Assembly (NCBI GenBank): GCA_903928685.1
Contig: CAIYRS010000007.1
Coordinates: forward strand, 1 to 44,000
Source: an uncultured Methylococcaceae bacterium
GTDB lineage: Bacteria > Pseudomonadota > Gammaproteobacteria > Methylococcales > Methylomonadaceae
Length of the DNA stretch: 44,000 nt
Reading direction: 5' to 3'
Made by a program: the position numbers and the translations under genes. This document shows, one piece after another, positions 1 through 44,000 of the stretch. The notes under the pieces are model-generated. The model worked only from the letters and a program-made list of their open reading frames with translations. It had not been told where the DNA came from and searched no databases. Numbering within the stretch: the stretch's first letter is position 1; each line of letters opens with the position of its first letter.

Positions 1-1101
1 CAGCAGGAAAATTTCCAAACCAATGGCCCATTGCAAGGCATTGACAAAATTCTTGTCTTTGTATTTGAACGGCACGACCCCGCAACCGGCATCGCATTCG
101 ATGTCCATGACCACCCATTTGCCATTGTGGGCATGGCTGGCATTGGCAAATTGGCGTTGCGAGTCGCCGGAGGCGGTGACGGTTGCGCCAAACAACACTT
201 TCCCCACATCCATGGTGATGTTCTTGTTTTTGTTGAAGGCTTCGGCAATCTGCGCCGCGCCGGAGGAGAATTTGAAATCGCCTTCAGTGCCGTAGCTGTG
301 GAATTGGATGTGCGTCAAGTGCATGGGCAAGCCGCCGATGCCTTGGATGGTGTCCAGCGTAGTTTGCACGTTACCGGGTACGCCTAAGTTACAGCCGTGG
401 ACATGCAGCGGATGGCTAACGCCCAATTCTTTAACCGCGGTTGCCAACACTTGCAAAATGTCGCGTGGCGTTACCCCGTAATGGGCGTTTTGCTCGTCCA
501 AATCCAGTTTGCGCTGGTTGAATTTGAAGGCATTGATGCCGCCAGGATTCACGACTTTTACGCCGATGGCTTTAGCGGCATTCATCGTCCACGCGACATA
601 ATCGTTGATGGCTTTTTGGTCTTTTTTGGCGGTGAGCATCCGCAGCAAATAATCATCGCTGCCGAGCATGACGTAACCGCCTTTGTCCAAAATGGGAATA
701 TCGCCCATTTCCATGTGCGCTTGGCGGGCGTTGATCGGCAATACGGCGGGTTCAAACCCAGCGGTGTAGCCCATTTCTGCATAACGGTAGCCTGTTACAA
801 ACGTGCTGGGCATGGCGTGCCCGCAACCGGAGCGGCAAATATGGGTGCTGGCGACAGGGTCTTGGCGGTGATCTTCCGGCAACATGGTACGGGCGATATT
901 GCCTTTGCCGCCGCCGATGTGCGTGTGCATATCGATAGCGCCGGACATCACGACTTTGCCCCTTAAATCGTATTCTTTATCGGGTTTGGCTTCCGCTGGC
1001 GGGTTGATGATGCGCCCGTCTTGGATGTAAATATCTTGTTGTTGGCCTGCGATGCCAGCGGCGGGGTCGTAAATGGTGCCGCCTGTGAGTTTGATTAACA
1101 T
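1..1101 (-). CDS. fhcA: Formylmethanofuran dehydrogenase/hydrolase subunit A, C-terminus cut by window edge
   Basis: The minus-strand frame is open from the ATG at 1101 to the window edge and gives 367 residues. The family is about 550 residues, so roughly the C-terminal third is missing. It begins MLIKLTGGTIYDP and carries the amidohydrolase metal-binding pair in DMHTHIGGG (His59 and His61), followed by the family-typical stretch RTMLPEDHR. In methylotrophs the Fhc complex converts formyl-H4MPT to formate plus H4MPT through a methanofuran-like carrier, and subunit A is the formyl-hydrolysing subunit. An AAGGA ribosome-binding site precedes the ATG. The upstream partner fhcB is separated from it by about 1.4 kb of unrelated genes, which is unusual. 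The family call is very secure; the catalytic role rests on family knowledge. Confidence 0.96.
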   Translation of the reverse strand, partial: MLIKLTGGTIYDPAAGIAGQQQDIYIQDGRIINPPAEAKPDKEYDLRGKVVMSGAIDMHTHIGGGKGNIARTMLPEDHRQDPVASTHICRSGCGHAMPSTFVTGYRYAEMGYTAGFEPAVLPINARQAHMEMGDIPILDKGGYVMLGSDDYLLRMLTAKKDQKAINDYVAWTMNAAKAIGVKVVNPGGINAFKFNQRKLDLDEQNAHYGVTPRDILQVLATAVKELGVSHPLHVHGCNLGVPGNVQTTLDTIQGIGGLPMHLTHIQFHSYGTEGDFKFSSGAAQIAEAFNKNKNITMDVGKVLFGATVTASGDSQRQFANASHAHNGKWVVMDIECDAGCGVVPFKYKDKNFVNALQWAIGLEIFLL

Positions 1102-1181
1102 GGGGTTTCCTTAAAACGGATTTTGTAATTTAAAAATACAGTAAATTGGCGATAGTTTGGTCGCGTATAAATGTTTGCTGA

Positions 1182-1598
1182 TTATTGGGGAACAACAACG
1201 ACAGGCGTTAAACCCATGCGCGTGGCTCGTTTAGCAAATTTTTTGTCATCAAAAGAAGCCATTTTTGCGCAATCTTTATAGCTGGCGTGATGCAAAGCAT
1301 CGGCAAAATCAAGACCACAATTCATAGTGGCAACAGCCTGTTGAATATCCTCCCTGTCTTCTAAACTGACATATTCAAGCGACAGCAAATGATGGAATAC
1401 AGTGGCTATTTCTGTGGCTGAAAAAGCGTAGTAACCACGCATTACCCATTCAAATTCTAGCAAAACAGTTTTGCAAACCATCAGGGCTTGGCCAGACTCC
1501 ATAAGTGACCTTGCAAGCTCATGTTGCTTTTGAGCTTCTTGGTCAGCTTCATCCTGAATGTAATAACGCGCCAAAATGTTGGTATCAAGCCCTATCAT
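1182..1598 (-). CDS. PIN-domain toxin (VapC-like RNase)
   Basis: The 138-residue protein starts MIGLDTNILARYY, the PIN-domain N-terminus with its first metal-binding Asp. It continues with an internal acidic residue in VLLEFEWV and the second conserved cluster DFADALHHAS. PIN toxins cut RNA (tRNA, rRNA or mRNA) using Mg2+ held by these acidic residues; the target here is unknown. The start overlaps the end of the upstream AbrB-type antitoxin gene by 14 nt, so the pair should be translationally coupled and is best read as a type II toxin-antitoxin module. It lies between fhcB and fhcA in the same direction, so fhc transcription could read through it. Confidence 0.9.
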   Translation of the reverse strand: MIGLDTNILARYYIQDEADQEAQKQHELARSLMESGQALMVCKTVLLEFEWVMRGYYAFSATEIATVFHHLLSLEYVSLEDREDIQQAVATMNCGLDFADALHHASYKDCAKMASFDDKKFAKRATRMGLTPVVVVPQ

Positions 1599-1827
1599 CG
1601 TTCAATAAATTAGCTGGGTCAAAATCGGCTGGTACAGCGGCCCGACGGCTTTTTAACATGCCAAATCCTGTCGTGACTTGTTCAGTATTGTCATCGCTCA
1701 GGCGCAATTCGATATGGTCACCTACAATGGTGGCTAACATTTTACAGCCTGCATTGATACCCAATTGCTCCCGAATGCTTTTGGGGAGTGTTATTTGCCC
1801 TTTGCTAGTGACAGAGGTGGTTTGCAT
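1585..1827 (-). CDS. AbrB/MazE-type antitoxin (VapB-like)
   Basis: This 80-residue protein has the SpoVT/AbrB swapped-hairpin DNA-binding signature near its start (TSVTSKGQITLPKSIREQLG), followed by a short tail expected to bind the toxin (for example DFDPANLLNDD). The gene overlaps the PIN toxin gene by 14 nt. Such antitoxins neutralise the toxin and repress their own promoter, so an operator is expected just upstream of 1827; I did not define one. The antitoxin-first order and the overlap support a complete and probably functional module. Confidence 0.9.
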   Translation of the reverse strand: MQTTSVTSKGQITLPKSIREQLGINAGCKMLATIVGDHIELRLSDDNTEQVTTGFGMLKSRRAAVPADFDPANLLNDDRA

Positions 1828-1867
1828 GGTGTCCTATTAATACTATGTGTTATTGGCTTAAATTCAT

Positions 1868-2485
1868 TTAATCTTGTGCCCAAGTATCAAATATCTCATT
1901 CACACTCATTGCCAATTCTGGAAATAGATACGGCACGGCAATATCATCGTTGGTGTACATGTGCTGCAATTCATATTTTTGTTGTTCGTTTAATACGAAT
2001 TGGTGAATGGCTTGATGACCAGGAAACACTAGCCAATATTCCATCACACCGCTTTCTTGGTAAAGCTCATAGTTGGTGTGGATTTCCCGTTTGGCTGTGC
2101 CTTTAGAGAGGATTTCAATAATCCAATCGGGTGCGCCGTTGCAGCCTTGTGTATCGAGTTTTTCTTCCGGTTGACACACAACGCAAATGTCCGGCTGGAC
2201 AACGGTGTGTATCTCTTCATTTTTTAAGATCGATTTTTTGCGGTCATAAAGCCGGACATCAAACGGTGCGGCAAAAACACGGCATTTTTTGTGCTTAAAA
2301 AAAGCGTGTAGCAGCGCGTGTAAATTTCCAGAAATGCTTTGATGAGCAACGTTCGGCGCAGGCGACATCAGCATAATCTTGCCTTTAATCAGCTCCACCG
2401 CTTCCTTTAACTGCCATGTCAAATATTCGGCATAGCTGTAGCTTTGGGTTAAATCCAGTTGGTCGAGGAGGATGATCTTAGGCAT
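1868..2485 (-). CDS. Uma2 family (DUF820) putative endonuclease
   Basis: The 205-residue protein shows the Uma2/DUF820 layout: an N-terminal SYAEYLTW segment, ELIKGKIMLMSPAP, the central VQPDICVVCQPE strand, then PDWIIEILSKGTAKREIHTNYELYQESGV in pieces, which carries the PD-(D/E)xK-like acidic residues. Family members are common in cyanobacteria and methanotrophs, often in many copies, and are predicted restriction-endonuclease-fold nucleases with no established role. It sits between fhcB and the toxin-antitoxin pair, all on the minus strand. A hairpin repeat lies immediately upstream at 2512-2540. The family is confident; the activity is inference. Confidence 0.88.
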   Translation of the reverse strand: MPKIILLDQLDLTQSYSYAEYLTWQLKEAVELIKGKIMLMSPAPNVAHQSISGNLHALLHAFFKHKKCRVFAAPFDVRLYDRKKSILKNEEIHTVVQPDICVVCQPEEKLDTQGCNGAPDWIIEILSKGTAKREIHTNYELYQESGVMEYWLVFPGHQAIHQFVLNEQQKYELQHMYTNDDIAVPYLFPELAMSVNEIFDTWAQD

Positions 2486-2511
2486 AAGGCTCTCAATTTT
2501 GTAGCTACATC

Positions 2512-2540
2512 GTTGGGTTACGGCTAGCGCCTAACCCAAC
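2512..2540. repeat. Hairpin repeat overlapping the fhcB stop codon
   Basis: The arms GTTGGGTTA (2512-2520) and TAACCCAAC (2532-2540) are perfectly complementary around an 11-nt loop. The sequence looks like a common REP-type extragenic palindrome. The stop codon of fhcB (2531-2533) and its last codons, Cys-Arg-Leu-Gly, lie in the right half, so the palindrome has supplied the end of the protein. It marks the left border of fhcB with the inserted genes. Confidence 0.75.
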
Positions 2541-3796
2541 CTACATTGAGTTTCTATCGCATTCATTACGTCTGCGGTGCTTGGCAAACCAGAATCCCGC
2601 AATTTTTTCAACCGAATTGCCACAACGCTATCCATGCGGTAAACATGTCCGGCGTGGTCGATGCCGGGTGTGCCGACGGGGATGAACACATCGGGTTCTT
2701 TCTCAAAAACCATGCCGGAGCGTCCGACGACAATGGTTGGCAAGTCGGTCATAGGTGGAATGGAAGCGGTGTTATAGGCTTGTACCCAAACCAGCGCGTC
2801 CGCTTCGCCGTTTGCCACTAATTCACGGGAATCATTCAGGAACGGGTCGTATTCGGGATAGCCACGGCTAAAGCTTGTGCGTGCCGGATAGCCTGTCGTC
2901 CAACCACAAACTTGGTTGGCGGTTAGGTCGCCTTCTTTGCCTGACAGCGGCAAACCTGAACAGCGCGTATTCATGTCATTTAAGTCTTTAATCATTTCTG
3001 ACAGGGTTTGTACGGTCAGATCGGCTTGGCGGTAATCCAGTTGACCTGCCGACCAAGTGACTACGCCGTATTTTGCGGCTTTCAATTGGTCGGCAATGGT
3101 TTGCAAGTCGCTGACGGCAATGCCCGCCACGCTTTCGGCGCGGATCGGGTGTTTTTTAACTAAAGCCCGTAACACGGCGATAACTTCCGGCAAGTCGGCG
3201 GTGGCGCATTCCAAGACTTTGGCTTTATTGCCATTTGGTGAGGTTGAAGCCTCAGTAGACGGAGCTTTGCCCAGATAAATCACTTGGCGTTGGCTGCTGT
3301 CCTCTAAGAACATGGCATCTGTCCACAGATACCGTTCAAAAAAACGCGGTGCGAAGGATTCCAAATCCTTACCGACCACCAATAACACATCGCAACGGTT
3401 TTTGACTTCCGCCAGTGTGGTGTTCATCCACCCTGAGTCTTGCAAGACTAAATAATTAGTGCGTGCACGGGAAAAATTCATTTGATCGACCACCGCACCA
3501 ACGCGGTCTGCTAAGGCCAGCAAGCCGCGCATCCCGTTTACGTCCGTGGAGCAACCGCCAATCACTGGCAGTTTGGTGTCTTTCAGTAGCTCGGCAGCTT
3601 TGGCGACAGCGGCTTCTAGGCTGACTTCCTTGCCGTCCACGCGTGGGCTGGTGTCGCTGATGGGCTGTTCAAACAGTGGCGTGTTGACCGCGCAGCCGTT
3701 GGCGATCACTTTCACGGTGTTACCGTCTATTTGGATGCTCAGGTCATCGGTGCCGATGCCGCAAAAAGGACTGGGTACTTCGGTTATTTCGGTCAT
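2531..3796 (-). CDS. fhcB: Formylmethanofuran dehydrogenase/hydrolase subunit B
   Basis: The 421-residue protein has the FhcB/FwdB pattern: an N-terminal PSPFCGIGTDDL motif, PVIGGCSTDVNGMRGLLALA, and a C-terminal molybdopterin-enzyme-like half including IPPMTDLPTIVVG and PVGTPGIDHAGHVYRMDSV. In bacteria that use H4MPT for C1 oxidation, subunit B is needed for the formyltransferase/hydrolase complex but does not act as a true formate dehydrogenase. Its length is normal. The last four residues are encoded inside a hairpin repeat, so the native C-terminus may have been altered. fhcB is usually directly followed by fhcA; here a Uma2 gene and a toxin-antitoxin pair intervene. Confidence 0.95.
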   Translation of the reverse strand: MTEITEVPSPFCGIGTDDLSIQIDGNTVKVIANGCAVNTPLFEQPISDTSPRVDGKEVSLEAAVAKAAELLKDTKLPVIGGCSTDVNGMRGLLALADRVGAVVDQMNFSRARTNYLVLQDSGWMNTTLAEVKNRCDVLLVVGKDLESFAPRFFERYLWTDAMFLEDSSQRQVIYLGKAPSTEASTSPNGNKAKVLECATADLPEVIAVLRALVKKHPIRAESVAGIAVSDLQTIADQLKAAKYGVVTWSAGQLDYRQADLTVQTLSEMIKDLNDMNTRCSGLPLSGKEGDLTANQVCGWTTGYPARTSFSRGYPEYDPFLNDSRELVANGEADALVWVQAYNTASIPPMTDLPTIVVGRSGMVFEKEPDVFIPVGTPGIDHAGHVYRMDSVVAIRLKKLRDSGLPSTADVMNAIETQCRLG

Positions 3797-3924
3797 TAAC
3801 GGTCCTTACAAGAAGAGTTTTGGTAGGTTGGGGATGGCCCAACGGCTTGGTTTTAGTTTCGGTATTCTAACGCGATTTAAATTGGCTGTCTTAAGAAACA
3901 CGGCAATGAGCAAGGGCTGGCGCA

Positions 3925-4083
3925 TTAAAATGAAGATATTAGCCACATAATTAAATACTCAAAGACCGTGCTGTTGATGGCAAAACTGTGTTGTTTATCT
4001 GCAGCGGCACAATGCCGACACGCGAACGCATCGTAAAAACCACCAACTGCGCCTGTGCCGATTACTAAAACGTTTAGTGTCAT
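3925..4083 (-). pseudogene. Truncated ketopantoate-reductase-like fragment
   Basis: A 52-codon frame begins MTLNVLVIGTGAVGGFY, which is the N-terminal Rossmann GxGxxG nucleotide-binding motif typical of 2-dehydropantoate 2-reductases (about 300 residues). After about 17 residues the similarity stops and an unrelated tail runs to a stop at 3925. It abuts the IS5-type remnant that begins near 4095 in the opposite direction. The simplest reading is a panE-type gene cut off by rearrangement. The fragment is short, so any Rossmann-fold oxidoreductase is possible. Confidence 0.55.
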
Positions 4084-4094
4084 GGATTGGGTAA

Positions 4095-4456
4095 TTTAGA
4101 GTTTATGCCTTGGACAATCCGATCAGTCTGTTGCTAACCGCTGGCCAAATATCAGAATATACCCAAGCCGAATCATTGATTGCAGGCTTTACCACTGGGT
4201 ATGTTTTGGCGGATAAACGCTACGATTCGGATCAGTTCGTGGCCGCCATAACGGCTAGCCAGGTTGTTATTACTGTCATACCCTCGAAAAAGAACAGGAA
4301 AACACCAAGGGCGTTGGACAAAACCCTTTATAAAGAACGTAACCTGGTTGAGAGAAGTTAAAGCATTTCAGGCATGTGGCTACACGCTATGAGCGCTTGG
4401 CAAGGAATTATCTGGCCAAGCTCTGTTTGGTTTCCACGGTAATATGGCTCAATTGA
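4095..4456 (+). mobile_element. IS5-family transposase remnant, frameshifted
   Basis: The first part reads YALDNPISLLLTAGQ and GYVLADKRYDSDQFV, the region around the second catalytic Asp of IS5/IS1031-type DDE transposases, and ends NLVERS at a stop near 4359. The C-terminal part continues in another frame from 4361 with KHFRHVATRYERLARNYL, ending VIWLN and a stop at 4454-4456. Together they form the end of one transposase broken by a frameshift, with the N-terminal half missing. No terminal inverted repeats were recognised. A small palindromic repeat follows at 4485. Confidence 0.85.
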
Positions 4457-4484
4457 GAACACCAATTCGGCGCTTGGATCGGGG

Positions 4485-4578
4485 AATAGGATGTGCCTAC
4501 GAAGAAGTGCATCTGTCGAGTCACGCGAACGATGCGCTTCGTTCCTTTTATGCCCTTTGGGTACAGCACATCCTATTT
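4485..4578. repeat. Palindromic repeat family A, copy 1
   Basis: The outer arms AATAGGATGTGC (4485-4496) and GCACATCCTATT (4567-4578) are perfect inverted repeats. The interior holds GTGCATCTGTCGAG and an imperfect second stem. Related copies occur at 5570-5650 and 23380-23455, sharing the outer GGATGTGC and the core GCATCTGTCGAG. It has no coding capacity and looks like a small non-autonomous (MITE- or REP-like) element. Confidence 0.8.
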
Positions 4579-4652
4579 TTGCTGAATCATAGCTTTAGGG
4601 GGGATTTCCATATAAGAAACCCCACCCTAAATTCCAGAATCTTACAAAGTTT

Positions 4653-5054
4653 TTAGTTACCGTTAATCGTGGCTTTTTTCTCTTCAAAACCGCTATAGCC
4701 AATATGGCCTGACCTTTCTTCCTCTTCTGAGACAAATTTGCGATGGGCTGAATCAGTCGATGCTTTATCAGGATTGTTACTAGGAGCAACCGTTACAGTG
4801 CCAGTGGCTTGTTTGCCGTTAACAGCTGCCTTCTCTTCAAAACCGCTGTAGCCAATATGCCCTGATCTTTCTTCCTCTTCGGAAACAAATTTGCGATGGG
4901 CGGACTCAGCCGATGCTTTATTGCCATCTTTATCATGGTTAACCGATTCAGCATTGGCAGCAAAGTGTTCAGAGCCAGCAGTTACATCCGCAAATAAAGG
5001 TGCAGAAACTAAACAAGCAACTAAAGCAAAACTGGTATAAATATTTTTGTTCAT
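4653..5054 (-). CDS. Secreted protein with two near-identical repeats, unknown function
   Basis: The 133-residue protein opens with a signal peptide (MNKNIYTSFALVACLVSAPL, cleavage expected after FA near residue 22). The mature part is hydrophilic and contains two copies of a roughly 35-residue unit at about 46-80 and 97-132. Each unit reads SAHRKFVSEEEERSGHIGY and then SGFEEK; that 25-residue core is identical in both. The unit has an acidic EEEER run and conserved His, Tyr and Phe residues, but I recognise no family. An export role in the periplasm is inferred. The start is supported by GGAGAA just upstream. It was probably the downstream neighbour of hda before the restriction unit arrived. 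Confidence 0.8.
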   Translation of the reverse strand: MNKNIYTSFALVACLVSAPLFADVTAGSEHFAANAESVNHDKDGNKASAESAHRKFVSEEEERSGHIGYSGFEEKAAVNGKQATGTVTVAPSNNPDKASTDSAHRKFVSEEEERSGHIGYSGFEEKKATINGN

Positions 5055-5384
5055 GGTAATTCTCCAAGAATAAATTATGTTTGATGATGTTAATTTCGTA
5101 TTTTTCCGTCCTTGGTTTAAACAAGTTTGTTATCCATCACAATTGTCATTAAGCAGCTTCAATGCCATCATGTAAAAAAATTAAAAAAGACATTAATAAT
5201 CAATTACTAAAGAATATTTTTTGAAGAAAAATAACCGTAAAATTTTATCTTGTTTGCTTTGGGCCATGGTTAAATGGTTGAAATGAACACTTTTATTTGG
5301 TTGAAAACATCAACATGAATATTGATTTGATGAAGTAGCGTTGTTGCGTAAAAGAATAAGAGTCTGAATCAAGATTCTGACTTT
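5055..5384. other. A+T-rich intergenic region
   Basis: About 330 bp with no convincing frame. It is rich in A and T with homopolymer runs and should hold the promoter of the minus-strand secreted-repeat gene near 5055-5150. Nothing else is recognised. Confidence 0.6.
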
Positions 5385-5567
5385 TTAATCCCTAAGCACT
5401 TGCTTTAAAAAAGGAATCGTCAACTTGCGCTGTGCTGCCAGCGAGGCTTTATCTAGCTTATCCAGCAATGCCCAGAGTGAAGGCAAATCACGGTCGAAAT
5501 GGGTGAGCAGGAAGCGCCCGACTTGTGGGGATATGTCAAAACCGAGTTGTCCTGCTTTAAACATCAG
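5385..5567 (-). pseudogene. Duplicated 3' end of hda (left direct repeat)
   Basis: These 183 bp match 7675-7857, the last 60 codons plus stop of the intact hda gene, with 7 mismatches (about 96% identity). The match starts at the stop codon and ends abruptly at 5567, where a family A repeat begins. The fragment has no start and is not functional. With the intact copy it forms a direct repeat that exactly brackets the restriction-modification unit. Confidence 0.95.
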
Positions 5568-5569
5568 TG

Positions 5570-5650
5570 AATAGGATGTGCCAACGGAGAAGGCGCATCT
5601 GTCGAGTTATACGAACGATACGCTTCGTTCCTCAGTACACCTTAGTTCAT
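5570..5650. repeat. Palindromic repeat family A, copy 2 (decayed)
   Basis: It begins AATAGGATGTGC and has the family core GCGCATCTGTCGAG, followed by CGCTTCGTTCCTCAG. The right arm is eroded relative to copy 1. It begins three bases after the hda fragment ends, so it marks the left junction of the inserted segment. Confidence 0.75.
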
Positions 5651-5762
5651 CTTATTGGGTTGTTAATGCTAAGACCGTGTTGTTTAACCACAGCATAATC
5701 GGAGCGACAACACCGAATTATTTATCCAACGTTATGTAGGGATTTTAGCTGCATAAAAATAA

Positions 5763-6899
5763 CTACTGCAGTATTTTCGTCGCTAACGCCGCACCAATTT
5801 TTTCGGCAAGTAACACAGGGACTGCATTTCCAATTTGGCGCATAGCTTCACCCCATGCCCCCTTAATAACAAAGTCATCTGGAAAAGTTTGTATTCGCTT
5901 CGCCTCAAAAGTTGTGAAATATCGAACACTACCGTCATTAAAGCGAATCATATTTTCACCACCGGGTACACCGTGTCCACCTGCCTTAATGGTTTTAGAC
6001 GGCCAATCAAAATCACTGCCCGTATGTCCTGGATAAGTGCGGGCACCATCACGAAAAATATGATCAATTATTCCGTGGTTTGATTTCGGGTCTGGCGCAT
6101 CAAATAAAGCATCTCGGATAGTTTTCCAAGGTAGGGATTCGGGTTCAAACATGCCATACCTATCATATAACTTGGCTATTTTTTCTTTAAAAGAGCCTTT
6201 TAAAACAGGACGTAATGATTTTTGAATTTTATGACGCTCCCAATATTCCCATGTTATGTACATATCCCAAAGTAGCCTATCTTCAGAGTGCGTTGCTGAT
6301 GGAAATATCCAAGGTAGACAAAGGTCACTCCTAATGCCAACAATAACAACACGTTCGCGTGTTTGTGGAACACCATAATCGGCGGCATTGATTAACTTAA
6401 AAGTAACATCGTATTTTTTTTGCGTTGGATTATATCGATCAATATTCCGGAGCTGGTCAAGATGGTGTTCCCAATTTGAGTTTTTCGAAATGGCAAAATC
6501 AGGGTAACCCAGTCTTAAAATGATATATTCAAAATAATCCGAAAAACTTGGGCGAAGTAAGCCTTTTACGTTTTCAAATACAAAGGCTTTTGGAACAAGC
6601 CGTTCGATAGCCCTTATGGCATAAGGGAACATGTCGCGACTATCTTGATTGGCTTGATGCTTGCCGCCAAGTGAAAAAGGTTGGCAAGGTGGCCCGCCAG
6701 CGACTAAATCGATTTGCTCAAGACTATCTAAATCAAAATCTTTAATATCACCAAAAAACACACATTTGGGATCAAAGTTTTCAACGAGAGAATTACAGGC
6801 GTGTTTATTGAATTCCACAAATGCAGCATGTTTAAATCCTGATAACTCTAAACCTTTTGCTAATCCTCCTGCTCCTGAAAAAATTTCAAGGGTTCTCAT
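5763..6899 (-). CDS. DNA (cytosine-5-)-methyltransferase, Eco29kI-type
   Basis: Starting at the ATG at 6899 gives 378 residues with the C5-methyltransferase motifs in order: LEIFSGAGGLAKGLE (motif I, AdoMet), GGPPCQPFSLGG with catalytic Cys72 (motif IV), FVFENVKGL (VI), GVPQTRERVVIVG (VIII) and MRQIGNAVPV (X). It transfers methyl groups to cytosine in a specific site. Its partner upstream is an Eco29kI-like endonuclease, for which the known site is CCGCGG, so that site is the prediction. The gene overlaps the endonuclease frame by 14 nt. A GTG-rich upstream extension to 6941 is possible, but the start used here gives the canonical N-terminus and follows GGGGTG. All motifs look intact. Confidence 0.95.
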   Translation of the reverse strand: MRTLEIFSGAGGLAKGLELSGFKHAAFVEFNKHACNSLVENFDPKCVFFGDIKDFDLDSLEQIDLVAGGPPCQPFSLGGKHQANQDSRDMFPYAIRAIERLVPKAFVFENVKGLLRPSFSDYFEYIILRLGYPDFAISKNSNWEHHLDQLRNIDRYNPTQKKYDVTFKLINAADYGVPQTRERVVIVGIRSDLCLPWIFPSATHSEDRLLWDMYITWEYWERHKIQKSLRPVLKGSFKEKIAKLYDRYGMFEPESLPWKTIRDALFDAPDPKSNHGIIDHIFRDGARTYPGHTGSDFDWPSKTIKAGGHGVPGGENMIRFNDGSVRYFTTFEAKRIQTFPDDFVIKGAWGEAMRQIGNAVPVLLAEKIGAALATKILQ

Positions 6900-7542
6900 A
6901 TTGACACCCCAATGTTTGTAGATGTAGCTGAGTATTAGCAATGATTACGCTTTTTTCAGTATGTTTACCATTGCATTTATTAGCCAAAACTCTTCCTTCG
7001 TGAATAACATCCCAATCTGATTTTGCCTGCTCATACCGACCACTTCCGGGATCATGATTGCCAAAACCATCAACAACGGTATTCCAAAGTGGCTTGTTGA
7101 GTTTTATTAAAGCAGCTTCGATTGTGCTAATCATGTCTGAGCCTTCATCTTCAAAAATGATGAAGCGACACATAAAATCCTCAAGGCTCAAATCATTGCT
7201 TAAGCTAATGTTTCTACTGTGTTCTTTAAGTCAAGTAATAAGTTCGCGCGATGTGCTTAGTGTGTTTTCAGAAGCACGAGATTGCCTCCATCCTTTGGGA
7301 ACAGCTTTTCCAACATAGATAGGATAACTATAAGAAAGACGATTTAATTCTGCGTATTTTTTGTATAAAGAATTTTGTCCTGTGTAATAAAGGGCATATA
7401 CGCCTGTTCCCAAGAAAGATTCAGGCGGTGGAAGTGCATGAACAGGTGTTCCGTTAAAAAATCTAATTGCATCTTTTACCAATTCCGCAAATGCTTCATT
7501 TTTGTAAACATGTTCATTACGATCAAACGATTGTGGTTTCAT
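6886..7542 (-). pseudogene. Eco29kI-family GIY-YIG restriction endonuclease with an in-frame stop
   Basis: One continuous frame of 218 codons is broken only by a TGA at codon 104 (7231-7233). The N-terminal part has GVYALYYTG (Tyr49) and YPIYVGKAVPKGW (Tyr76), the GIY-YIG signature. After the stop the frame resumes LKEHSRNIS (His108) and continues with Glu142 and Asn154. These residue numbers coincide with the catalytic positions I recall for Eco29kI (Tyr49, Tyr76, Arg104, His108, Glu142, Asn154). The stop therefore sits at the catalytic arginine, most simply a CGA to TGA change. Length matches the family (about 214). The nuclease should be inactive, leaving a solitary methyltransferase. Confidence 0.9.
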
Positions 7543-7674
7543 TGAATAAATATTTCCTTATTTCAATAGAAGTATTTTCTCATACGGGATAATTTGTTGT
7601 ACTGAATGCTCATTTGAATGGCATCCATACATAACTTTAATTACAAGGTGGTTTTAAGATGATATTCATTCTAA

Positions 7675-7857
7675 TTAATCCCTAAGCACTTGCTTCAAAA
7701 AAGGAATAGTCAACTTGCGCTGTGCTGCCAGCGAGGCTTTATCTAGCTTATCCAGCAATGCCCAGAGCGATGGCAAATCGCGGTCGAAATGGGTGAGCAG
7801 GAAGCGTCCGACTTGTGGGGATATGTCAAAACCGAGTTGTCCGGCTTTAAACATCAG
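7675..7857. repeat. Right copy of the 183-bp direct repeat (within hda)
   Basis: This is the 3' end of the intact hda gene and the partner of 5385-5567. The segment between them (5568-7674, 2107 bp) contains one family A repeat and the restriction-modification pair. Removing one copy plus the insert rebuilds a simple hda locus. Confidence 0.95.
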
Positions 7858-8367
7858 CACGGCGATTTTGTCTTGGTCTTGCAGGGGCTGTAGTTTTAAG
7901 GTTAGTCCCCAGTTGAGGCGGGTTTTTAGATCGGGCAGTTTAATGCCGAGTTGGTCGGGCGGGTTGTTGGCGGCGAGGATGAGGTGGTGCGCCAAGCTGC
8001 GGTGTTGGTTGTAGAAGTTGAACAAGGCCAGTTCCCAATCGCTATGGCCTGCGAGAGCGTCGATATTGTCCAAACACACCAAATCCAATTTTTCTAAGCC
8101 GATTAACAACGCCGGATCAGGCAAGTTTTCAGCAGCAAAGGCGAAATAAAAGGCTGATAACCCTTGTTGGTTGGCTTGTTGGCAGCAGGCTTGCAATAGA
8201 TGGCTTTTGCCGAGGCCAGATTCTCCCCAAAGATAAATTTGCGCTTCGCCCGCGCCTGTTGCGCTGGCTTGTAAATGCGTTAGCGCTTCTTGGTTACTGC
8301 CGGGGTAAAAGTCGCTGAAGCTTTGGTTGGCGCGGAATTCGAACGCTAAGGGAAGTTGTTCTGCCAT
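7675..8367 (-). CDS. hda: Hda, DnaA regulatory inactivator
   Basis: The 230-residue protein has the Hda layout. The N-terminal QLPLAF motif (residues 4-9) binds the DNA-polymerase sliding clamp. The Walker A is WGESGLGKSHLL (about 47-58), the Walker B region LVCLDNIDAL, and the C-terminal part is the AAA+ lid and DnaA-like domain. With the clamp on DNA, Hda stimulates hydrolysis of ATP on DnaA and so prevents re-initiation. It starts one base after the DUF2069 stop, as the last gene of an overlapping minus-strand run that also contains an ArsC-like gene, a neighbourhood also known around hda in E. coli (yfgD-hda). The 3' end is duplicated at 5385-5567, but this copy is complete. Confidence 0.95.
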   Translation of the reverse strand: MAEQLPLAFEFRANQSFSDFYPGSNQEALTHLQASATGAGEAQIYLWGESGLGKSHLLQACCQQANQQGLSAFYFAFAAENLPDPALLIGLEKLDLVCLDNIDALAGHSDWELALFNFYNQHRSLAHHLILAANNPPDQLGIKLPDLKTRLNWGLTLKLQPLQDQDKIAVLMFKAGQLGFDISPQVGRFLLTHFDRDLPSLWALLDKLDKASLAAQRKLTIPFLKQVLRD

Positions 8368-8368
8368 G

Positions 8369-9656
<1,288 letters not shown>

Positions 9657-9721
9657 GGTGGATAAGCCCCCGTGAAAACAAAGCGGTTATAATAGCACCA
9701 ACAAAACTCTTATGATGAAAG

Positions 9722-10576
9722 ATGATGGATAAATTAAAACAGTATTGGTTGTTGGCCCGATTTGATCGCCCGATAGGCACGTTGATTTTACTCTGGCCGA
9801 CTTTATGGGCGTTATGGGTGGCAGGTGATGGCAAACCGGATGGCTTGGTGCTTACCGTTTTTGTCTTAGGCGTGGTGCTGATGCGGGCGGCGGGCTGTGT
9901 GATAAATGATTATGCCGACCGCGATTTTGATCCGCATGTAGAACGCACCAAACAACGCCCCATTGCCGCAGGCAAGGTAAAGCCCAAAGAAGCCTTGATA
10001 TTATTTGCGGTGCTGTGTCTGATTGCTTTCGGACTGGTGTTATTGATGAATATCTACACCATTTTATTATCGTTTATTGGCGCATTCCTCGCCGCCAGTT
10101 ACCCGTTTATGAAACGCTACACCCAGTTGCCGCAAGCCTATTTAGGTATCGCTTTCGGATGGGCAGTACCGATGGCCTTCGCCGCGCAACGTGGAGAGAT
10201 TCCTCTTGTTGCTTGGTTGATGTATCTGGCGGTGATGTTATGGGCTTTGGTTTACGACACCATGTATGCCATGGTGGATAAAGACGATGATTTAAAAATC
10301 GGCGTTAAATCCACGGCGATTTTATTTGGCGATTACGACCGCCACATCATGGCGATATTGCAAACCATTATTATCGGTTTGTTAATTGCCGTCGGGATAT
10401 TGGCACAACTGCAATGGCCTTATTACCTTGGTGTAGCAGCGGCGACGGGCTTGTGCGGCTATCAACAAAAACTGATTTTCCATCGCCAAAAAGCCGCTTG
10501 TTTTAAAGCCTTTTTAAACAGCAATTGGTTTGGGTTGGCGGTGTTTTTGGGATTGTTGGTTAGTTATCAGCTGTAA
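9722..10576 (+). CDS. ubiA: 4-hydroxybenzoate polyprenyltransferase
   Basis: The 284-residue integral membrane protein has the UbiA family Asp-rich motifs: NDYADRDFD with the following [12 protein letters not shown], and a second in [19 protein letters not shown]. About eight hydrophobic helices follow the usual pattern. It attaches the polyprenyl tail to 4-hydroxybenzoate in ubiquinone synthesis, in the inner membrane. The chorismate lyase gene that often accompanies it is absent here. The gene is divergent from the arsC-wrbA-hda run, with about 65 bp between the starts. An in-frame ATG at 9725 is an alternative start. Confidence 0.95.
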
Positions 10577-13656: not shown

Positions 13657-14661
13657 TTAAAAATCGTTTAACAGTTGTTGTTTTTTGCTGGCGTAATCTT
13701 CATCAGAAATTAAACCTGCATCTAACAAGCTTTTAAGCTCAGTCAGTTTAGTGGTGATATTGCTTGCGGCAGCCGTTGGTGGAGTGATCGCTTGCGACAG
13801 GTTTTGCCCAAAGCTGATACCGGCTCCCAATCCCATACCCATTCCCGCCCCGCCGCCTTCGTTTCTGGCAGCTTCGCGCATGGCTTCCAATTGCTGCAAT
13901 TGTGCGTAATCCAAACCTGCGGCTTTGGCGGCTTGGGCTTCGGCTGTCAAATCGGCAATGCGGTTGATACGGGATTGGGTTTCTTCATCAAAATCCGTGC
14001 CTTCAATACGAAAATCGGTCAGATGTAAACCAAGTCCGGTAAATATGCCCGACAAGGTTGTTCGCATTTCTAAGGCAATGTCATCGCGGTTTTGGTCAAT
14101 ATCGGTATAGCTAAAATGGCTGCTGGCAAGAAAATCACTCAGCGGTTGCAAAAACCGTGATGCCATTACGGTGCGGAAATCATCGATATAAAAGGCTTCT
14201 TGACTGCCGACAACAGCTTCAAACAAATGTCGCGGTTCAACAATCCGGTAACTGTAATTGCCGAATGCTTTTAAGCCCACAGGAAAGTGGTATTGCGGGT
14301 CTTGGTATTTGATGGCTGAGGTGGTGCCCCATTTCTGGTCGATGATGTCGGTGCGTTTAAAAAAATAAATACCGACTTTATGCTCGCTTTCAAAAAACTG
14401 CATTACCCGGCTGATGGTTGTCCAAAACGGGATGTTGTCAGTTTTTAAATTGATGGCACACGGCTCTTGAATCACCGCTTGCACTTTACCTTTATAAACG
14501 AAAATACAACCCTGCCCTGGGCCAACTATCAACGTGGAAGCGTTTTTAATTTCGTCGCCATTATCCGTCCACTGTTGGAACAAACAATTTGCATCCGGTT
14601 GTTGCCATTCAATTACCGAACGTAGCTGCCGTTTTATGCCATCAAATAGTGCCATTTTCAC
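13657..14661 (-). CDS. SPFH-domain protein with SHOCT tail (YdjI-like)
   Basis: The 334-residue protein begins MALFDGIKRQLRSVIEW after an optional two-residue start (ATGs at 14661 and 14655). It is typical of YdjI-like SPFH proteins: a beta-rich first half (LIVGPGQGCIFVYKGKVQAV), an SPFH core ending FTGLGLHLTDFRIEGTDFDEE, a coiled-coil-like alanine-rich helix near 235-265, a glycine-rich linker and a C-terminal SHOCT motif (LKSLLDAGLISDEDYASKKQ). In Bacillus the relative YdjI is recruited to the membrane in phage-shock-type responses. That role is only suggested here. First gene of the four-gene minus-strand run. Confidence 0.87.
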   Translation of the reverse strand: MKMALFDGIKRQLRSVIEWQQPDANCLFQQWTDNGDEIKNASTLIVGPGQGCIFVYKGKVQAVIQEPCAINLKTDNIPFWTTISRVMQFFESEHKVGIYFFKRTDIIDQKWGTTSAIKYQDPQYHFPVGLKAFGNYSYRIVEPRHLFEAVVGSQEAFYIDDFRTVMASRFLQPLSDFLASSHFSYTDIDQNRDDIALEMRTTLSGIFTGLGLHLTDFRIEGTDFDEETQSRINRIADLTAEAQAAKAAGLDYAQLQQLEAMREAARNEGGGAGMGMGLGAGISFGQNLSQAITPPTAAASNITTKLTELKSLLDAGLISDEDYASKKQQLLNDF

Positions 14662-43740: not shown

Positions 43741-44000
43741 GGTTAGGATATTTTTATTGTTATGTAACTTACGTTACGCAGTAACGCGCTTTTCTACCGT
43801 TTGCCGCGTCGAGCACCGGAGTATTTGTCGGGAATAGCCCGAAGGGGTGCGGCATGGATGCCGCACGGCGGCAGATGGGCAGGAAGCCCATTCTGCCGTC
43901 CCCCGACAAATGCGAGGAGCGCAAGACATGAGCGGCAACCGGGCCGCCTTTTCTTTGGCTACTTTCTTTTGGCGGCGCAAAAGAAAGTAGCTCGCCTTCG
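43741..44000. other. Noncoding end region with nested palindromes
   Basis: This stretch upstream of dhaK holds several stem pairs: TGCGGCAT with ATGCCGCA near 43850, GCAGATGGGC with GCCCATTCTGC (43870-43895) and TATTTGTCGGG with CCCGACAAAT as an outer arm pair. The last is GCTACTTTCTTTTG (43958-43971) against CAAAAGAAAGTAGC (43978-43991), a perfect 14-bp stem. A frame on the minus strand is not credible as a gene. These look like dispersed extragenic repeats. Confidence 0.65.

Follow-up and report, generated by a model that had tools for sequence, protein, structure and literature searches.

How did a restriction-modification unit come to lie between two copies of the end of hda? The route by which restriction-modification genes enter chromosomes without a transposase of their own is unsettled, and "insertion with long target duplication", reportedly described for such units by Nobusato et al. 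in 2000 and by Furuta et al. in 2010, names a pattern. The locus considered here lies on contig C7 of the draft genome of a methane-oxidizing bacterium, 3.38 Mb in 117 contigs; the window is the whole stretch of DNA that was analyzed, 44,000 bases.

Two copies of the end of hda

5385-5567, minus strand: putative displaced 3' end of another hda allele, comprising 60 codons plus the stop codon, with seven synonymous mismatches to the intact gene
7675-8367, minus strand: hda, intact, 230 aa (NCBIfam TIGR03420, 277 bits, over the cut-off; Pfam Hda_lid), whose last 183 bp (7675-7857) are the right copy of the repeat

The duplication of 183 bp with seven mismatches, at 5385-5567 and 7675-7857, proved exact as the original prediction had it, and a search of the 117 contigs of the same genome (E up to 0.001) places the sequence at these two positions and at no third. 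The longest exact run shared by the copies is 59 bp. As had also been claimed, one copy is the 3' end of the intact hda and the other is a fragment that starts at the same stop codon and runs up to a repeat; it ends at 5567, 4 bases short of a MITE-like element whose inverted end begins at 5572. The identity of the copies begins exactly at the stop codon in both. All seven mismatches are at third codon positions and synonymous, and the 60 encoded residues are the same in both copies. Since they are the same, recombination between the copies could possibly, as had been supposed, delete what lies between them without altering the Hda protein.

Long direct repeats of the target gene flank the restriction-modification unit. 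In this the locus resembles insertion with long target duplication, known here through citing papers, in which restriction-modification genes lie between direct repeats of the order of 100 bp and the target gene is whole. The two differ in that the copies in the window look like diverged alleles.

Divergence of the two copies

A copy made at insertion should start out identical to its source, and a truncated copy should then drift at all codon positions. In the 183-bp stretch, 24% of the possible single changes are synonymous. The chance that seven of seven changes would be so is 4.7e-5 with equal mutation weights and 3.4e-4 with transitions weighted six-fold, and a Fisher test of seven differences over 43.3 synonymous sites versus none elsewhere gives 4.2e-5. 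Because all seven differences are synonymous, a meeting of two functional alleles accounts better for the copies. The argument against a single target is statistical, not a direct observation; it argues for alleles that diverged while both worked rather than for one target copied and then drifting, and we consider such an origin probable. Of the earlier proposal of an insertion with long target duplication, the architecture stands, and the descent of both copies from one target, identical at the start, does not fit seven synonymous differences out of seven.

The classical form of that proposal would hold that the insertion copied 183 bp of one hda and that homologous import afterwards altered only synonymous sites of the working copy. 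The architecture and the length of the repeat do match the published descriptions, as far as the citing papers give them, but the truncated copy should show random changes, none of the differences alters the protein, and a second, separate import into hda is required. We regard this explanation as unlikely.

Differences confined to synonymous sites are also what a mixture of strains would show, and the genome is a draft in 117 contigs, so that an assembly chimera of two strains has to be weighed; the second copy at the nqrF locus described below, moreover, ends at the end of its contig. Against a chimera, there is no N in 4000-9000, the contamination estimate is 0.13%, and a false join would presumably need a k-mer shared at the junctions, where none is known, with 59 bp being the longest exact run that the copies share. 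An assembly artifact is very unlikely on these grounds.

The relatives give little purchase on the order of events. No close relative, empty site or donor was found among 20 genomes of the genus, and the closest Hda protein in the 60 other relatives shares 71% identity; we therefore infer the order and direction of events. Among the matches listed for the 60 other relatives there is no extra piece of the hda 3' end. What else matched hda in them was DnaA, larger frames with a weak match (G039, G054), genes that are split or run off a contig end (G014, G015, G049) and, in G038, another full-length match. Polarizing the seven sites with 29 hda loci of relatives was abandoned, the third positions being too variable to tell which copy is ancestral.

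The restriction-modification unit

5763-6902, minus strand: Eco29kI-like cytosine-5 methyltransferase gene (M), intact frame, 379 aa from ATG (PF00145, 198.5 bits)
6886-7542, minus strand: Eco29kI-like restriction endonuclease gene (R), with one in-frame stop at 7231-7233 (PF09517 and the structures PDB 3mx1, 3mx4 and 3nic matched on both halves)

The methyltransferase is 84-91% identical to its counterparts in five relatives of the genus, and its frame alone is intact in the unit. The stop in R is codon 104 of the frame. In the 10 relatives whose R gene was read there is no stop before codon 216, and in four the stop at 216 is reached. A frameshift in R, suggested by two separate open reading frames, was rejected once the single in-frame stop was found. 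Because of this stop, restriction is probably off, which would leave a solitary methyltransferase. An Eco29kI-like unit between the hda copies had been predicted, and the family assignment is borne out; the R gene is not intact. As in the Eco29kI system, a PF09517 endonuclease adjoins a PF00145 methyltransferase and a homolog has been solved (3mx1/3mx4/3nic); unlike there, the endonuclease gene is broken by a stop and has no open frame.

Probable relation to integron cassettes

5731-5737, minus strand: ACATAAC, candidate cassette end (R''-like), shortly behind M; reverse complement of 7629-7635, possibly by chance
7629-7635, minus strand: GTTATGT, candidate for the opposite cassette end (R'-like), 93 nt before R starts, possibly by chance

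Scanning the collection of genome contigs with the methyltransferase of the window gave 41 loci. At 10 of these (L075, L076, L077, L078, L081, L082, L085, L086, L087 and L090) a covariance model finds an attC site directly behind M. The model was built from 12 sites, eight of them the 3' sites of these same loci; because eight of the 10 loci supplied sequence to the model, the independent matches are those at L077 and L086 and the further sites in L076 and L082. An attC site is also present upstream of R in L075, L076, L078, L081 and L082. In L082, from an uncultured proteobacterium, 227-5312 is an array of attC matches in which the restriction-modification unit is one cassette.

A tree of 39 methyltransferases places the window in a clade of nine rows (support 100/97) that includes four attC-bearing ones; the rows nearest to it, L073 and L074, are both without attC. 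These placements suggest that the unit probably descended from an integron gene cassette. This kind of gene pair ends in attC at 10 of the 41 related loci, whereas the covariance model finds no attC in the window or in the rest of its genome (for the genome the empty answer is weak, there being no positive control), and no integron integrase in that genome passes the family cut-off, where 12 of the 20 genus genomes searched have one that does. Since neither was found, the unit should no longer move as a cassette here.

Of the cassette ends, the window keeps no more than a degenerate pair. The candidate 7-mers listed above have a shuffle frequency of 0.027, and R'/R'' pairs were seen in 8 of 34 own combinations versus 36 of 1122 mismatched ones. 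The candidate end in the window stands 49 nt, not 28-29 nt, from a GTATG stretch shared with L078 and L079. One family of restriction-modification units occurs both as integron cassettes and outside integrons. Restriction-modification systems on integrons are already in print, in the excerpts available; a literature search for attC integron cassettes with type II restriction and methyltransferase genes gave no match, and a looser integron topic did.

Surroundings of the unit

2531-3796: formylmethanofuran dehydrogenase subunit B gene (TIGR03129)
3968-4094, minus strand: second panE relic, which keeps the start codon with about 11 preceding bases and is followed by deletions (from comparison with intact panE)
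4101-4463, no strand assigned: end of a multi-copy insertion sequence, with a transposase fragment at 4110-4361 (profile match and repeats in the same genome)
4487-4576, no strand assigned: MITE-like copy, long form, both inverted ends kept (from alignment within the same genome)
4653-5054, minus strand: gene for a small two-repeat protein, the left neighbor, with a signal-like start (open reading frame; secretion read by eye)
5572-5644, no strand assigned: MITE-like repeat, short form, with the inverted end TAGGATGTGC; multi-copy, aligned with 19 other stretches of the same genome; the other end is degenerate and uncertain by about 10 bp
5661-5716, minus strand: panE relic, about codons 29-48, with a 2-base gap; aligned with the intact panE of contig C77 in 58 columns, at 84% identity

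It had been stated that between the hda copies lie only a repeat and the Eco29kI-like unit. Both are there, and so is the panE relic at 5661-5716. This gap content, together with the interrupted R gene, is a further difference from insertion with long target duplication as the citing papers describe it. In G018 and G009 panE comes after hda, with 2 bases between them. In the window panE is gone from behind hda save for the relics at 5661-5716 and 3968-4094. The intact panE of the genome is on contig C77 (L114, 279-1238), behind a gene without a Pfam match and not beside hda; about 11 bases before its start are common to the relic at 3968-4094. The right end of the window (43797-44000) is a repeat, 91% shared with the start of contig C77.

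The panE relics carry indels and amino-acid changes. Because they do, the adjacent scar in hda looks younger than the decay around it, and the two hda copies look like working alleles that were joined recently.

The relics bear on a further explanation, that a full second hda stood in tandem, was functional for long and diverged synonymously, until a deletion beside the MITE truncated it. The order of the two relics is as expected from a tandem hda-panE duplication, and the fragment does end 4 bases before the MITE. Among the 60 other relatives, however, a second full-length match to hda is seen only in G038, on another contig, and the repeats found in 4000-10000 do not include the upstream neighbor of hda. 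We hold a tandem origin to be improbable.

The MITE-like family with the inverted ends TAGGATGTGC has a long form, about 90 bp, and a short form, with 19 further stretches in the same genome; related stretches are also present in G003, G006 and G016. The copies at 4487-4576 and 5572-5644 bracket the hda fragment and the small gene in direct orientation, as if the two had been moved by composite transposition, independently of the restriction unit. The genome has no second copy of such a block, though: within 3950-5384 only the insertion sequence, MITE and panE parts match elsewhere in it, and the hda fragment matches only hda. Composite transposition was dropped for lack of support and is most improbable.

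The small two-repeat gene has no Pfam match and no match in the 40 other genomes searched. Left of the formylmethanofuran dehydrogenase gene, 1182-2485 holds what we take to be VapC-like, antitoxin-like and Uma2-like genes. Two further readings were dropped. A weak hairpin is present behind the left copy, where alone the hda terminator might have been kept, but the terminator scan does not list it. For the gap as a whole, terminator-like sites are about as frequent as in shuffles and promoter-like sites fewer.

Proposed one-sided recombination between alleles

We lean toward a history in which two hda alleles were joined at one locus when a block bearing the unit entered by one-sided recombination. 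The block would have come from a related lineage whose hda was already followed immediately by the Eco29kI-like unit, with the panE relic and the MITE beyond it. The unit must have lain there in such a donor because the match between the copies breaks off precisely at the stop codon, and this position is a coincidence that the recombination model has to accept. On one side the incoming block would have paired homologously within hda. On the other, where hda codon 171 meets the end of the MITE, it would have been joined without long homology, either because a linear fragment underwent homology-facilitated illegitimate recombination or because a circularized fragment entered by a single crossover. 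The working hda would now be completed by the incoming end, with 5385-5567, the end of the other allele, left as a scar.

Both routes of one-sided integration, homology-facilitated illegitimate recombination and the single crossover of circularized linear DNA, are described in the accessible text of PMC3240628. Displaced gene ends are ascribed, as a hypothesis, to homology-facilitated illegitimate recombination, which is called rare, in that of PMC5361080. One homologous anchor, one illegitimate join and displaced gene ends are common to the process in these two sources and to the history proposed here; the locus in the window differs in being known as finished sequence only. The way the two hda copies have diverged fits a homologous anchor supplied by a diverged donor.

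If the copies are diverged alleles, the pattern follows from ordinary recombination with the DNA of relatives. The event would then be datable from the synonymous differences, and the published cases could be tested by counting synonymous against non-synonymous ones. It is conceivable, and we suggest it tentatively, that, at least in the Eco29kI-type family, the long target duplications flanking restriction-modification units are scars of one-sided allelic recombination and not of transposition-like insertion: the unit would ride in with a diverged core-gene copy, and the end of the losing copy would stay behind. In the literature excerpts retrieved on target duplication by restriction-modification units with synonymous differences and homologous recombination, the match concerned another gene.

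Parallel loci and frequency of flanking repeats

The same signature is found at three Eco29kI-type loci with three host genes, hda, nqrF and a pilC/gspF-like gene. In L099 (CAIQZX010000080.1) the restriction-modification genes and one further gene lie between a full nqrF (TIGR01941) and a fragment of the start of nqrF. The repeat, 254 bp around the nqrF start, is at 8909-9162 and 14198-14451 (the contig end); its copies have 13 mismatches, 12 synonymous and one not. A difference in codon 79, located at the first base outside the repeat, was excluded from the count. On the side of the fragment, the frame in front is presumably the end of nqrE, as its translation reads.

In L195 (genome G185, 78% complete) the order is an intact pilC/gspF-like gene (PF00482; below every NCBIfam cut-off), M, R, and then the last part of that first gene again. 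The repeat is 498 bp with 13 mismatches; of the 10 in coding sequence, nine are synonymous. The binomial tails are 3.4e-5 for the pilC/gspF-like gene and 3.3e-7 for nqrF. Together, 21 of the 23 coding differences at these two loci are synonymous, and 28 of 30 when hda is included.

At L195 the likeness reaches into the beginning of M, where 31 of 33 bases agree over the best stretch, and for this reason the displaced allele may itself have carried a unit. Judged from its sequence, the history of L195 is more complex than a simple scar model. After the displaced gene end, 3659-3760 looks like what is left of the beginning of another methyltransferase gene.

Flanking direct repeats were uncommon, being found at 2 of 32 testable loci of the 41-locus scan. 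The test took 34 of the 41 loci, two of which had too little flank, with a limit of 80 nt; L086, L091, L097, L101, L108, L112 and L113 were left out, their genes being partial, split or at a contig edge (L108 has no R match). Random positions had such repeats in 5 of 54 cases in one control and in 0 of 110 in a second, which omits the L091 and L108 of the first and adds other loci. An enrichment of flanking repeats at restriction-modification units was dropped in view of 2/32 versus 5/54 and 0/110. Thirteen loci were added, of which L201 is the same as L103, five have no R match and two have repeats (L195 and L201). Four more followed, among them L210, whose two repeats (55 and 59 bp) fall short of the 80-nt limit, and L212, without an R match. 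At L103/L201, one locus seen twice, a 176-bp direct repeat spans the unit.
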